From the NCBI RefSeq assembly GCF_032854445.1, contig NC_088295.1, forward strand, positions 83,124,644 to 83,188,643: a DNA stretch of 64,000 nt, given 5' to 3'. The position numbers and the translations under genes are program-made. Below the pieces are notes generated by a model, which saw only the letters and a program-made list of their open reading frames with translations, was not told the DNA's origin and ran no database searches. Positions 29,296-58,423 of this stretch are shown piece after piece; the stretch's first letter is position 1; each line of letters opens with the position of its first letter. This DNA comes from Liolophura sinensis. Its lineage: Eukaryota > Mollusca > Polyplacophora > Chitonida > Chitonidae.

Positions 29296-32200
29296 CTACA
29301 TTACAGAGCATTTTTCTCCTTTCTGCGCTATCAGTTTCTCGTACTGTTTCACGTCCTCTATGTAAGAAAGAGGCGGCCATCTTTCCTTCTCTACGTGCTT
29401 TTTGTTTTCTCCGGTCAGATGCTTCCACTCCGGTCGATTCATAAAGGGTTCGTAGTTTGAAGCGATGAAATGAAGGCACCATTTAGACAGCTGACTAGCG
29501 TTATGCATCTGAAGTCAAACAAAAAAAAAAGAAAAATAAAGCATGTAGACTAAATATATCCCGCATCAATTCATTATATGGTGAATGTCTCCTGTTGTCA
29601 ACTTTTTTCATATATTTGACGGCTGTCTCGGTTATGGTTGGTGGGGGTGTGGTGTTGGTATGGTGGGGTTGCTAATGAAACGAGTTAAACCACTGCAACA
29701 CCAGTTACTGGAAAAATTTTCTTACTTAACGCCGTGGTCGAAATTTCCAAGAGTTTCATTCATGAATGAAAAGTTTCATTTTCGCATATTTGCCTCATAT
29801 ATCAAGTGTTGAAAATAATTTGCATTAGACAAAAATATGAATGTACTTACATCGGAAAAGTTGAGCAAGCCAATAACATCAATGTCAGCCTTCTCTATGT
29901 TTTGGATACACTTTTTATCCACCTCTTTGCTAATGTATAGTTCACACAAATTAACTAGACGTGGTTGACCATATTCGTCCGCTAAGGCAAGTAGTTCCAA
30001 TGCATCGCTGTCTTCAACTGGGGAATGATCCGTGTACAAATACTCCAAGAACGCAAGAAAACCCTCCATACTGATATCCGTTAGGCTTATCTACAAATTG
30101 AAGAGTTATAGCGATTGTTAAACTAGAATGATAAGACAAACAGGTATCCGTGAATTTCTCTCAATTTTATGACTTGTCCCTTAAACTCATTACCGTAAGT
30201 ACTGTTAGCCGTATCACAACGCTGGTGCAAAAAGAAAATATCGTTGAGAGTTATCTCCCTTCATGAGTTGGCCCGGTACCGTGAGAATGACGGATTCAGG
30301 TTTAACATCAGATGCAGACCAAAGCAAAACATTTTCTTCCACTGGTTCAGTCGCAAGCGACGTCTTGTTTTCATTTATTTTTTTTAAGTTAAATAAATTT
30401 TAATATTCTATTTTTGAGAAAGCATGACTATAAATGATCCAGCTTACCTTGCAGACATCCTGAGCAGTTTCTGAGAATCGACCACTGAACATAGCGGACA
30501 TCACCTCACATCTGGCGGCGAGGATTGCACGGTGGGCGTAAATCTGATCACCTGCAAATTGCTATAAAACATTTAACACACTTCCCAACGTTATTATTTA
30601 TTTTATTCACTGGATTCGTGTTTTACGCCTTACTCCAGAATATTTCATTTACATGTATATACGACGGAGGCCAGCATTATGGTGGGAGAAAAGTGGGCAG
30701 GGCCAGCAGGAAATTGACTATTATCTGCAAGTTGCTGGCAGACCTCCCAGGTACCTGATATTATTATAAGGCTCGCAATTGTGCCGACAAGCTACCTAGT
30801 AATTAAATGACAATACACAAAGTATATAGACACACGCCTGTACAGGTAAAAGGGTCATTAACAACATACTTGTGTGTTCTGATTTTTCAGGTTTGGTGCT
30901 TTGCTATGAATTTAAAATGAATTCACTGCATGTAACATTGATTGTTTTTTATCCATATCTTTAAAGGAGAGTGGACGCGCTATACCTTCAAATTTAAAGG
31001 AGAATGGACGCGCTATACCTTCAAATTTAAAGGAGAATGGACGCGCTATACCTTCAAATTCAAAGATAACGTCTGCTAGTGAGGACTGATTCAGGAAAAG
31101 CTCCTTCATCCTCTGTCCCGTCTCGTCGTTCAGAAATGTACCTATACTTGGGTTAAGGAACTCTTGCTCGGTTTGAAGGTTTGAGCAGATTGTTTCCAGC
31201 TGAGACAACTTGAAAATGTTGGCTACTCTGGCAAGTTCTATGATGCCCTCGTCTGAAATGTCGCTAGGCAGATCTGGAACTCCTACAGCAAAATCAATAA
31301 AGTTGTGTTCTTGTTAGAATGTACATGTATTGTGGAATATATTTGGAACCCAGAATGCTGTTAGCACATAAGAACCACTGTTTTCATTAACGAACCATGA
31401 GTGCTACACAGCCTCGTAGTTCTCGTTTTCAAGATCTTTCAAGAGCGAGACCCATGTGTATACTGTCTTAACATTTTATTTACAGGTACAAGCATTTAGA
31501 CTGGCAGTGACCTGACTTATTCTGACTTCCCTTCCAAAGGGAAACCACAGGAAAACAGGGAATTCTTGGCATAAATCTGTGTCTGGTTCAGCTGGAACTG
31601 GGCTAAATGTATGACTGTGTGTTTTTACGCCGTATTTTTTAACACATCACGGTCTGCCTTATCGACATGAGACGGATCAGCGACTGTTGGGTACAACCTG
31701 TAAATGGCTATAAAAATCAGTCAATTCTTGATGGATCAGCAAGTGGATACCCAATAATGATATATACCAGTGTAAAGAAACTCCAGGATGTGAACGAAAG
31801 TGGCGGCCTTGATGTCTGAGCAGATCTCAATACAGGTGTGACCGTGCTGATTGTCGGACTTCCGGTCGTATACTGCGGCTATACCTTCGACCCTCCCACA
31901 ATTCAGGTCTTCTAGTGTGAAGTTATAGCCAGCTTTGATCTCCTGTAGTTGGTTACTCTGAGAACGGGAATATATAGATCAAAACGCCTTGCCTGAATAG
32001 ATATACCGATATAGCACAACGATAAACTCTCCAATATATTTGAATGAAAGTATTAGTTTTACGCTCGCATAAAGCATACATATGGACTTATACACATAAG
32101 CATACAAATGTCCTAGACATTCCTTCCTTGGGTCTAGTTTCAATTGGATATGCTGGGTTATAACCTACATAACATTCTTTTCAAGCACTTTCAGGGCGTA

Positions 32201-35200
32201 TATGTTCAGTATTACCCGATGGCCAATTGTGTCCACCATACAGAGTGCACAATTTTCACAAGTTTTAATTGTTTATGGAACTTTATACATCTAATCGCTC
32301 GTTCAACATTCAAAACCAAGAAACCAACAAAAAAAAAAAAACAGACTGTGGAGTAAATAGCAAATGAAAAACATGCATTAGGAGAGCAATGTTAAACTTC
32401 AACAGTTAACAACACCCATCCGTTTTATCTAACCGTTATAACAACCCTTAGCTCCTCCATCTCTGTCATTCGCATTACCTCCTTGATCAGACGGCGTTTG
32501 TGTATATTTTGAAAGATCAGCCGAATAGAATTTCATCGTAGATTTGTTACCTTTACTCTGTAAGCCCAGGCGGTTTTCCGAACCAGTCTTCCTGATCGCC
32601 CTCACATAAGTGAAATATTCTTGAGTACCGGTAGTTATTCAGCTGATTGCTGTATATCTCAATACTCAAACAGTCTTCACTTATAAGATGGCGTATAGTT
32701 TTGGGGGAGGATCTTTGATAAACAACCGGCCTTTACCAAGTTACTGAACTTTACAACGTGTGCCGTACATGTACCATTGGGAACACCATCTTGATGTAAG
32801 ACGTTAGACTTGGCAGCGTTGTCGACAGTTTGTTGCCACCAAGGCCTGAAGAAATGAGAGCGAGAGAATCCACGAATTCCTTCCACGGCTGGAAAAGACC
32901 AAACCTTTTCACCATTCGGCCATGACCCGCTTCCTACGTGTTCGTGAACACTAGATAAACCATACGCTGCCCTTATCAAAATCAAATATTGTGGTTTGGG
33001 CCAGTTTTCTGCATGACTAACCTTCACAGAGGCCGAGATGCCAAAGATTCTGGAGAAGAATAGAGATGCCCCAGAAAGGATGATTTTGTGGGCATCTATG
33101 CAATGGACATCTTCGACAGTAAAAGTGACATCAGCGTGATGGGGTGATCTTAATAGGGCGTGGAACTCGTCAGCAAACACCGATGTCTCCACCTCAATCC
33201 AGGGAGCTTTGCCTGTAAAAATCAGTCATGAGTGTGAAACGGACTGGAATATAATAAGGCTTACATTCAGAATTACTTGTAGACATTAATTTGATTCCTT
33301 TGAGAAAGTAAATTAGACGACAATTGAAGAAAATCGGTTCTAAGGGCAACATTACAATAATTTTAAACAAGAAAGACTGTAAGAAAATGTATTTATCAAT
33401 GTGTTCTTTAAAAGAGACTTACTACACAATAAAAACAATAAAAACTTGATGCGGAAGGATAAATTGTCATTTAATCCCATCGAATTTTAGCCCATCTGAT
33501 GTTTTTTGAAAAAGCACTTTTACGGTCACATCTAGATCCCATGTAGAACTCTAGCTTAGTGAAAGAATGCCCAAGTTTTTTAACAAAGTCTGTGTGGTAA
33601 GCTGAAGTCTGAAAGCAGCATACAATCGTCAATTCAAACCGCCACATCATATACAGAGATTTGTATTTTTGTATTACACGATGGCGATACAGGAGGAACT
33701 TGCAAACTTACAGTCAATACAGCATGACATTTATTTATTTATTTCAGCGCTCTGTATCACTTGTCCGTGAGAGGAAGGTTACAGCTCTACCGTGATAGTC
33801 ACCGAGTTCAACATAGATTAATGCGGTAGATAAATGATTACTGCTTAAAAGTCATGTACGGAATAACCAAGTAATCGCCATATTGCGATAAAGTAACAAG
33901 CTCAAGAATGTTTTCCACCATAACATTGCTAATATGATGATATGGGTGGAGAGGGCTGGTCGTCATATATAGGAAACGTGAAGGTTATTTTTTTTATTAT
34001 TACACGATGGCAACCTTTTGCAGTTAGGACTTGTGTATCTCACCAGCTGGAGGCATCACAGGAGGCTGGGGACCCAACTTTTTCTTCCTTTTCTTCTTGG
34101 GGTCGTGGTTCAACACCTCTCTAATCTGAATAGATTACAACACAAATATTACTCAAGCCTAAATAAATCTTGCGGTATTGAGCGCTAAAACTTCTTACCT
34201 CCCACCATAACGCTGGCCGCCGTCATGTAAGTGAAATATTCTTAAGTACGGCGTAAAACACCAATGAAATAAATAAATAAATAAAACTGCATCTCGCACA
34301 CCTCAATGTGGAGCATCCAAAGGACCTGTTTTCTTGGTACGGGACACATTACATTGAAGGACATTACATCCCCTTGTAGCTTATTTCAATAACACTTGAC
34401 TGTGAAATAAAAACGAAACTAAAAATGTTAATAATATTAATAATGGACATGAAAAAAGTTACCATAAGGATATTAAAAGTTACTTTTCATTAAAGCATGT
34501 GAATATTACGATATTTTCTTACAGCATTGTCAAAGCAATCCTTCACTCCTTCCTGCGTTAACGCACTCGTCTCATAATAGGGCAAACCTAATTTATTCGC
34601 CATTTCTTTCCCTTCCTTGTATGTAACGATTCGACCATCGCTGCGTTCTGTTAGTCTTAAATCTGCGTAACAGAAAAGTGTTCATGTCACTGCACCAAGT
34701 CGTAAACCAGGAAAGTCACGCACAAAGTGAAATTCGTCATTTGCAAAATTCTCATCACAAACGGTAAAACTAATCTCCACCCTCAAAGCATTCCAAAAGC
34801 TATGCATGATATTTTGTTATTCTCCTCATATAGTAGGCCTATAAGTGGGTCACTCATTCGGGTGTTTGTAAGCTTATAAAAACATTCATGAGAGGGTCTG
34901 TACACAAGCACAGCAGCAAGAAGCAATGTGCTTTTATTATCATTTGGAACTCTTCCTTAGCTATCTGAACAATGAACCACTCAGCAGTTTTCAGTGATGT
35001 CTGAGAGTCTTGGAGAAACCTCAAGCATTCATTCATTCACTCATTCATTCAGATGCCGTGACTGTTACAAAACACAAAGAGACAGAAGCTGGTGAATAAT
35101 GCATTTTCTTTTACACTAATATTATCATACTGATAAGTTAACTTTCGCTTTTCTTTAATATACATAGAACAATTAATTAATCTATATAGGAGTGTGTCTC

Positions 35201-36073
35201 TAGCGCACGTATATCAGAGGTCACACAGCGAAGGCTAGATTCGAGCCAAAGCCTTCCCCAGGCGCCAATCACATGCGTCCATAATTATGTAGTTTACATC
35301 ACACTATATATGCGTATGATATGCTAAGGAACTCTTACCTTTCTTACAGCCCACGAGTATAACTGGTACTTTGGCTTTGTCGAAATGCTCCAATTCTGGC
35401 AGCCATTTTTCAGCTACGTTTGAGAGGGAGTTTCTGTTATCTATGGCGAAGCAGATGAGAAAAACGTCTGTTCCTGGATAGGCCAAGGGACGTAAGCGGT
35501 CATAATCTTCCTGGAAAAGACATACAGCCACTTGAGAGATAATGGAAGATATCTTCCCATTAAATAGTGCTAGACATTATGTGTAGAATTCTTTTTTACA
35601 AAGTGACGACCATTTTAATAATATTCAAATAACCAACAGGCTAGGCCTTTAACTCAGCTATACTCATATACTCTATATTGTTAGAAATTGTATAATTGTG
35701 TGGTTAATTATATCATCAAAATGAGGTGGGTCACTACGGGTACAAATGTATCCCATTTATAAATGTTTATAGTGTGTGCCAAGGCTACGAAGCTAAATGA
35801 CCTTGTCTGTAAAACACACACAAAATATACATGTAGTGTATTGGCGAGGAGTACATGGATTGATGCCTACAACAGCCCACCGTAACTTACCTGCCCCGCT
35901 GTATCCCAGAGCCCCAAGGAGACGGCTTTACCGTCCACCATCATCGAGGCAGAATAGTTATCAAACACGGTGGGAACATACTCGGACGGAAATGAACCGG
36001 TCGTATAGGAAATGAACAAGCAACTCTTCCCAACGCCTCCGTCCCCAACGCAGAGAAGTTTGATGTTCTGCAT
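29296..36073 (-). CDS. RacA/RhoBTB-like Rho GTPase with two BTB domains and CAAX box (581 aa)
   Basis: Ten coding exons (descending): 36073-35891, 35510-35339, 34662-34523, 34125-34044, 33212-33022, 31957-31768, 31282-31052, 30551-30448, 30090-29851, 29508-29296; every junction keeps phase. Residues 1-165 form a Rac-like GTPase: P-loop GDGGVGKS (10-17), switch [11 protein letters not shown], switch II DTAGQ (57-61), a CKKD guanine motif (116-119) and ETSAL (149-153). A basic and proline-rich linker (about 166-195) leads to a first BTB (about 200-320) with an internal insert, a second BTB (about 363-460) and the RhoBTB C-terminal region ([24 protein letters not shown]). The protein ends KCSVM, a CAAX prenylation signal. 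In the RhoBTB family the BTB domains bind Cullin-3 ubiquitin ligases, so a membrane-attached, GTP-regulated Cul3 adaptor is plausible (inference). Unlike human RhoBTB1/2 the GTPase motifs look fully canonical. The Rho insert helix after DLR is nearly absent. Confidence 0.92.
30590..30758 (-). mobile_element. SINE family A fragment in Rho gene intron 7
   Basis: Read on the minus strand, the family A body (tgccagcaacttgcag) leads into the conserved 3' end with 'ttctggagtaaggcgtaaaac' and an AATAAA-type tail. The head is missing. It has the same orientation as the host gene. Confidence 0.8.
30963..31061 (-). repeat. Three tandem 33-bp units spanning the exon 7 splice donor
   Basis: The units 31061-31029, 31028-30996 and 30995-30963 are almost identical; I saw only single-base differences. 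Each contains the sequence TTTGAAG|GTATAGCGCG. The family alignment suggests that the first donor (exon end 31052) is the normal one, but the same donor recurs with exon ends at 31019 and 30986. Because 33 is a multiple of three and no stop codon lies between, use of the second or third donor would add 11 or 22 residues ([11 protein letters not shown] type) just inside the second BTB domain. Confidence 0.9.
32565..32632 (+). mobile_element. SINE family A 3' fragment
   Basis: Only the end of the body and the 'aagtgaaatattcttgagta' block remain, inside the Rho gene intron 33021-31958, antisense to the gene. Confidence 0.7.
34196..34284 (+). mobile_element. SINE family A 3' fragment
   Basis: The copy retains 'cctcccaccataacgctggc', the conserved 3' end and an (AAAT)n tail. 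It lies in the intron between Rho gene exons 3 and 4, antisense to the gene. Confidence 0.85.
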
Positions 36074-57980: not shown

Positions 57981-58318
57981 CATTTGAGCAGTCTAAAACT
58001 ACATTTGTACAGGCTAAAACTACATTTGTGCAGTCTAAAACTACATTTGTGCAGGCTAAAACTTCATTTGTGCAGTCTAAAACTACATTTGTGCAGGCTA
58101 AAACTACTACATTTGTACAGGCTAAAACTACATTTGTGCAGTCTAAAACTACATTTGTGCAGGCTAAAACTTCATTTGTACAGTCTAAAACTACATTTGT
58201 ACAGGCTAAAACTACATTTGTGCAGGCTAAAACTACATTTGTACAGACTAAAACTACATTTGTGCAGTCTAAAACTACATTTGTGCAGGCTAAAACTACA
58301 TTTGTACAGTCTAAAACT
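57981..58318 (+). repeat. 21-bp minisatellite, 16 copies
   Basis: The unit is ctacatttgtgcagtctaaa plus one A. Sixteen copies are present, with one 3-bp insertion near 58105. Units ending cagtct and caggct often alternate, giving a partial 42-bp higher-order repeat. Because 21 is a multiple of three and the unit lacks stops in several frames, long open frames appear on both strands, but no gene context supports translation. Confidence 0.95.
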
Positions 58319-58423
58319 AACCATCCTTGTTTTAACAATTTAGAAATACACGTGTGACTTATTTTTGAAACACATGTAGGGGTCTATTCTGGTAGTCTAC
58401 ATGCTGTGTAAGCTGCATGTATA

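Follow-up and report, generated by a model that had tools for sequence, protein, structure and literature searches.

The host gene and its exons

The window (the whole 64,000-nt stretch of Liolophura sinensis DNA that was analysed) contains a gene on its minus strand that looks like a RhoBTB/RacA-like GTPase in its predicted domains. Nine coding exons were located, and all of them are open (Table 1). The predicted protein begins with a Ras-superfamily GTPase domain (Pfam PF00071 Ras, 7.8e-52), which was assigned to the Rho branch by eye. The second BTB domain (BTB2) matched PF00651 (5.6e-29 for the isoform made from donor 1) and is followed by weak BACK-like matches in Pfam. The start of the first BTB domain was recognised by eye alone, in exon 4, and exon 5 gave no Pfam BTB match of its own. 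The C-terminus, KCSVM, is CAAX-like.

The excerpt of PMC8305917 describes the RhoBTB/RacA architecture as a GTPase plus BTB domains, and the excerpt of PMC4669188 attributes nine exons and a CAAX box to the RhoBTB genes of bivalves. As far as these excerpts go, the gene resembles the former in its domains and the latter in its nine coding exons and CAAX-like end. Its final CSVM sets it apart from RacA and mammalian RhoBTB1/2, which have no CAAX according to the same part of PMC8305917.

The exon 3–4 junction is out of phase. The putative end of exon 3 is in phase 0 and the start of exon 4 in phase 1, and the two cannot be joined in frame (34523-33213). A small exon may be absent from the model between them, which would mean one more exon. 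At the border discussed below, the phases agree on both sides. The sequence-only reading had called this border exons 7-8; it is the same junction, but it is numbered coding exons 6-7 here.

Table 1. Features of the RhoBTB-like gene and of the repeat array at its intron 6 border
Feature	Position	Strand	Remarks
Exon 1	35891..36073	-	From ATG; GTPase domain
Exon 2	35339..35510	-	GTPase domain
Exon 3	34523..34662	-	GTPase domain; end putative
Exon 4	33022..33212	-	First BTB domain begins here (by eye)
Exon 5	31768..31957	-	Holds AAG|GTATAG look-alike at 31885
Coding exon 6	31052..31282	-	Terminates at donor 1; translation GVPDLP...; flanking phases consistent
Unit copy 1	31026..31058	-	Holds donor 1, last exon base 31052
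Unit copy 2	30993..31025	-	Identical to copy 1; holds donor 2, last exon base 31019
Unit copy 3	30960..30992	-	Holds donor 3, last exon base 30986
Dispersed SINE-like repeat	30591..30754	-	In the intron, between array and acceptor
Exon 7	30448..30551	-	Acceptor ...TTTGCAG|GTGATC
Exon 8	29851..30090	-	Remainder of BTB2 and beginning of BACK-like region
Last exon	29296..29508	-	C-terminus KCSVM

A minisatellite across the exon–intron border

The 3' end of coding exon 6 lies within an array of three head-to-tail 33-bp units (minus strand, 31058-30960). Each unit corresponds to the final 7 nt of the exon plus the adjoining 26 nt of the intron and reads TTTGAAG|GTATAGCGCGTCCA(T/C)TCTCCTTTAAA, where the bar marks the donor. 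Copy 3 differs from copies 1 and 2 by a single T>C at unit position 22, which is position +15 of donor 3. Between -7 and +26 the three donors share every base but this one, and all three 9-mers are AAG|GTATAG. The sequence-only reading had described a recent triplication with three identical splice donors. Its sequence and coordinates were recovered as given, its donor ends and the acceptor at 30551 were all correct, and a recent origin agrees with copies that are 100% and 97% identical.

Tandem Repeats Finder (TRF) reported a period of 33, 3.2 copies, 97% matches and a score of 198, the third highest among the distinct arrays of the window. With head-to-tail units of 33 bp, the array falls within the range of minisatellites (about 10-100 bp).

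The window occupies 83.12-83.19 Mb of contig C1, and a 251-bp query spanning the array matched one place in the 609-Mb, 632-contig assembly. When the first 21 nt of the unit were searched with up to three mismatches, at least three exact matches were found, all of them in the array. Elsewhere in the assembly the same pattern occurred in at least three places, each with three mismatches, and the reversed pattern used as a control had at least seven matches. By this search, the array is not a product of chance. Derivation of the unit from a dispersed element was ruled out, as no second copy was found in the assembly (the counts are lower bounds). One scan each of viral_contigs and genome_contigs yielded no homologue, as is expected of viral and prokaryotic collections. 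The neighbouring SINE-like repeat had 11 more matches in the window (self and unit hits excluded) and was present in 14 of 17 other 10-kb stretches.

A triplication could also be seen if the assembly were wrong here or if the sequenced individual carried a private variant. Copies 1 and 2 are identical, and a single place in a single assembly was available, as such a reading would have it. Against this, the array takes up ~100 bp on a 96-Mb contig and would be spanned by a long read, copy 3 has a base of its own, and comparable arrays are common. We regard an artefact or a private variant as very improbable.

The window holds 6 arrays with a period of at least 10 and a score of at least 100; another 170 kb of the assembly held 43 of them, or about one per 4 kb. 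The latter sample comprised 17 stretches at round coordinates, 15 of which held at least one array. If the six arrays of the window were placed at random, the probability that a splice border is covered would be 0.27 given 17 borders and would rise to 0.67 given 60. With minisatellites this dense, an array on a splice border is unsurprising. The reading frame was assessed in the same manner: a 33-mer drawn at random with the base composition of the window lacks a stop with a probability of 0.48, and a unit is a multiple of three in one case out of three. The joint probability is ~0.16, which makes the in-frame property weaker evidence. Border-crossing in-frame minisatellites should therefore recur in this genome. 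One sampled stretch (L034, 6183-6281) held another 33-bp array of three copies. In the window, a 21-bp array of 16 copies (57981-58319) has more than one open frame, with both strands represented; one of these frames reads as TTFVQAK repeats.

Reading frame, BTB length and donor properties

Joining donor 1, 2 or 3 to 30551 gives FEFEG-DQIYAH with 0, 11 or 22 additional residues and without a stop. All three donors are in phase 1, and FEG|DQIYAH is restored at each of the three junctions. Two further claims of the sequence-only reading were borne out, namely that any choice of donor preserves the frame (+0, +11 and +22 aa, stop-free) and that the additional residues fall at a turn of the second BTB domain, which is the beta1-beta2 turn.

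The isoform from donor 1 scored 101 bits against Pfam BTB, with 104 residues on 104 profile positions and no net gap. It also aligned to SPOP (4j8z) without a gap across the hairpin. The longer isoforms scored 92.3 bits (donor 2) and 91.5 bits (donor 3). Both are far above the Pfam cut-off of 20.5 bits, so the insert need not destroy the BTB fold.

The genome has a second RhoBTB gene (C6:42323540-42325714), whose hairpin, DITFEVDDGTVSAHK, has the length of the donor-1 form. This gene has no intron at the hairpin position where the gene of the window has one. Of the 17 BTB hairpins that could be read in this genome, 14 have exactly the donor-1 length (the rest are +1, in a poor alignment, +2 and +4), in a sample that was selected by alignment score and is thus biased toward gap-free matches. 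The sample covers 16 loci (15 of the 53 matches listed and the C6 locus); 15 hairpins were taken from the alignment and two by eye, and 2 of 19 alignment rows fell short of the hairpin. By these comparisons, the usual BTB length is the one that donor 1 alone would produce. The BTB2 introns of the two RhoBTB genes are both in phase 1 and lie 7 codons apart, that of the C6 gene directly preceding DITF and that of the window's gene falling at FEG|D. The difference may be due to intron sliding or to separate gain and loss.

All three donors might be appreciably used, in which case the gene would make three BTB2 isoforms (+0, +11 and +22 aa), possibly with a repeat number that varies among individuals. 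The near identity of the donors from -7 to +26, their common phase and the stop-free units are in line with this. The same is true of the rebuilding of FEG|DQIYAH every time, of the scores of the longer forms, of the +4 hairpin in another BTB of this genome and of the competition between adjacent donors in known genes (PMC5585400, in the part of the text available). The conserved BTB length, however, fits donor 1 alone, and the donors are weak and structured (see below). The sole difference between the copies lies beyond donor 3 and is uninformative. We consider appreciable use of all three donors possible but rather unlikely.

The donors of the array score 4.35 bits each on an approximate human donor matrix. 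On the same matrix, the donors of introns 1, 2, 4, 7 and 8 reach 7.7–12.7 bits, that of intron 5 has 3.65 bits and that of the putative intron 3 has 4.6 bits. At least as high a score was found for 399 of the 3855 GT sites of this strand. The array donors are weak. The same AAG|GTATAG 9-mer occurs in coding exon 5 (31885), in the same phase and as part of a shared GAAGGTATAGC. Splicing from this look-alike would cut out 117 nt in frame, and it is presumably not used as a donor. The weak score and the identical 9-mer inside exon 5 mean that the donor motif alone is no proof of use. Homology of the unit with the look-alike was considered because of the common GAAGGTATAGC, which was taken as chance or convergence.

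A stronger donor nearby could make the series irrelevant, but the best other GT in exon 6 has 3.8 bits. Stronger GTs in the intron (6.1 bits at 30870, 6.5 bits at 30755 and others) all lie beyond an in-frame stop at 30912-30914. Micro-introns between the copies, or recursive splicing at AG|GT, were rejected as well. Such introns would be 33 or 66 nt long, and the protein would be the donor-1 form. Animal introns are usually longer than 33 nt, and 66 nt is borderline.

The ends of the unit form an 8-bp inverted repeat (it begins with TTTGAAGG and ends with CCTTTAAA), whose one mismatch is a G-U pair in RNA. In the window, 48 of 63,967 33-mers have 8-bp inverted-repeat ends with at most one mismatch, the array's own counted; the frequency is 0.37% if 2 bp of phase uncertainty is allowed, for a feature that was noticed after the fact. 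One unit copy is already predicted to be able to place the donor in a hairpin. For the RNA of the three-copy array, a folding energy of -45 kcal/mol was predicted (z -3.58, 0 of 200 shuffles as good), a z value that is inflated because shuffling breaks up the repeats.

The predicted cost of opening the nine donor bases was 6.6 kcal/mol for one hypothetical copy, 8.7–9.2 kcal/mol for two copies and 8.3–9.5 kcal/mol for three. With three copies and 80-nt flanks, it was 9.5 kcal/mol for donor 1, 8.3 kcal/mol for donor 2 and 9.4 kcal/mol for donor 3. Among 150 random GT sites, the 90th percentile was 7.3 kcal/mol and the 95th was 8.15 kcal/mol. The other donors of the gene cost 1.5–5.1 kcal/mol (introns 1, 2, 4, 5 and 8) and 8.4 kcal/mol (intron 7). 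Hence, the triplication is predicted to bury all three donors further. As the strong donor of intron 7 costs 8.4 kcal/mol, burial by itself does not forbid use. Accessibility was dismissed as a predictor of the chosen donor, the differences among the three being too small. The sequence-only reading did not mention the weakness of the donors, the BTB length that fits donor 1 alone, the hairpin or the density of minisatellites.

These predictions bear on whether the array chiefly harms splicing. Weak donors buried in hairpins would then lead to intron retention or exon skipping and to less RhoBTB protein. Retention past donor 3 would run into an in-frame stop 24 codons after the glycine codon at that donor. 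The folding of the array RNA and the rise in opening cost from 6.6 to 8.3–9.5 kcal/mol, above the 95th percentile of random GT sites, speak for such harm. The comparable cost at intron 7 speaks against it, although that donor is a much stronger site, as do the inflated z value and the nine exons, which are all still open; the gene is thus not evidently decaying. A mainly harmful array seems improbable to us. The folding could also act as a splice ruler that depends on the repeat number. Among identical, mutually pairing donor hairpins, the fold would decide which donor is free, and the repeat number would thereby set the proportions of the BTB hairpin lengths that a RhoBTB ubiquitin-ligase adaptor has in a natural population. 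We give this little credence.

Origin of the array and choice of donor

We favour, with moderate confidence, a young local minisatellite. On this reading, the main working mRNA would come from donor 1, with donors 2 and 3 as its cryptic competitors. The ancestral state would be a single segment, TTTGAAG|GTATAG...CCTTTAAA, lying across the 3' end of the exon and the 5' end of the intron and bounded by the imperfect 8-bp inverted repeat. This segment would have been duplicated twice in place. We infer that fold-back slippage was the likely route; the left flank, CTTTGAA, resembles the unit end, CTTTAAA, and could have primed it. One weak donor would in this way have become three, all in frame.

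Donor 1 would most likely give the main mRNA because it retains the ancestral exon side and with it the conserved length of the BTB hairpin. With donor 1 in use, copies 2 and 3 would be harmless parts of the intron. The other two donors would be used at a low or variable level, adding the 11-residue segment once (donor 2) or twice (donor 3) in the beta1-beta2 turn. Against this preference, donor 1 has no advantage in predicted opening cost, and the most upstream of several identical donors need not win. The winner among them is not predictable from the sequence: PMC5585400, in the part of the text available, reports activation of intron-proximal sites by SRSF1 and of intron-distal ones by hnRNP A1, so donor 3 could win. 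DOK7 intron 4, described in the same excerpt, is like the array in that neighbouring donors share one acceptor and the choice is open to control by SR proteins and hnRNPs. In DOK7, 11 nt separate the sites, which are unequal and shift the frame, and their use was shown in RNA. The donors of the array have a spacing of 33 nt, are identical, preserve the frame and are predicted only.

In a published case of duplication over an exon-intron border, splicing signals were likewise copied. There, as far as the excerpt goes, the copied border was that of a 3' splice site, and the event created a new intron; in the present gene, the 5' border is concerned and a new intron is not required. Literature searches, none of them combining RhoBTB with splicing, turned up no paper that describes such a triplicated donor. 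Human introns reportedly arose from tandem arrays (a 2007 study by Zhuo et al.). There too, a tandem array reportedly multiplies splice-site sequence beside an exon; in the present gene, the extra sites are putative donors.

The triplication is probably an ordinary recent mutation. If donor 2 or donor 3 is used, the gene would be a clean natural case of three identical donors in a near-identical context with one acceptor. It would then be a test of how a choice is made among equal 5' splice sites, and would present a protein length that evolves through a minisatellite at an intron border. If donor 1 alone is used, the locus would show how a minisatellite-rich genome tolerates arrays at splice sites. 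Given the density of minisatellites, a genome-wide survey of arrays at exon–intron borders would be more informative than this single case.
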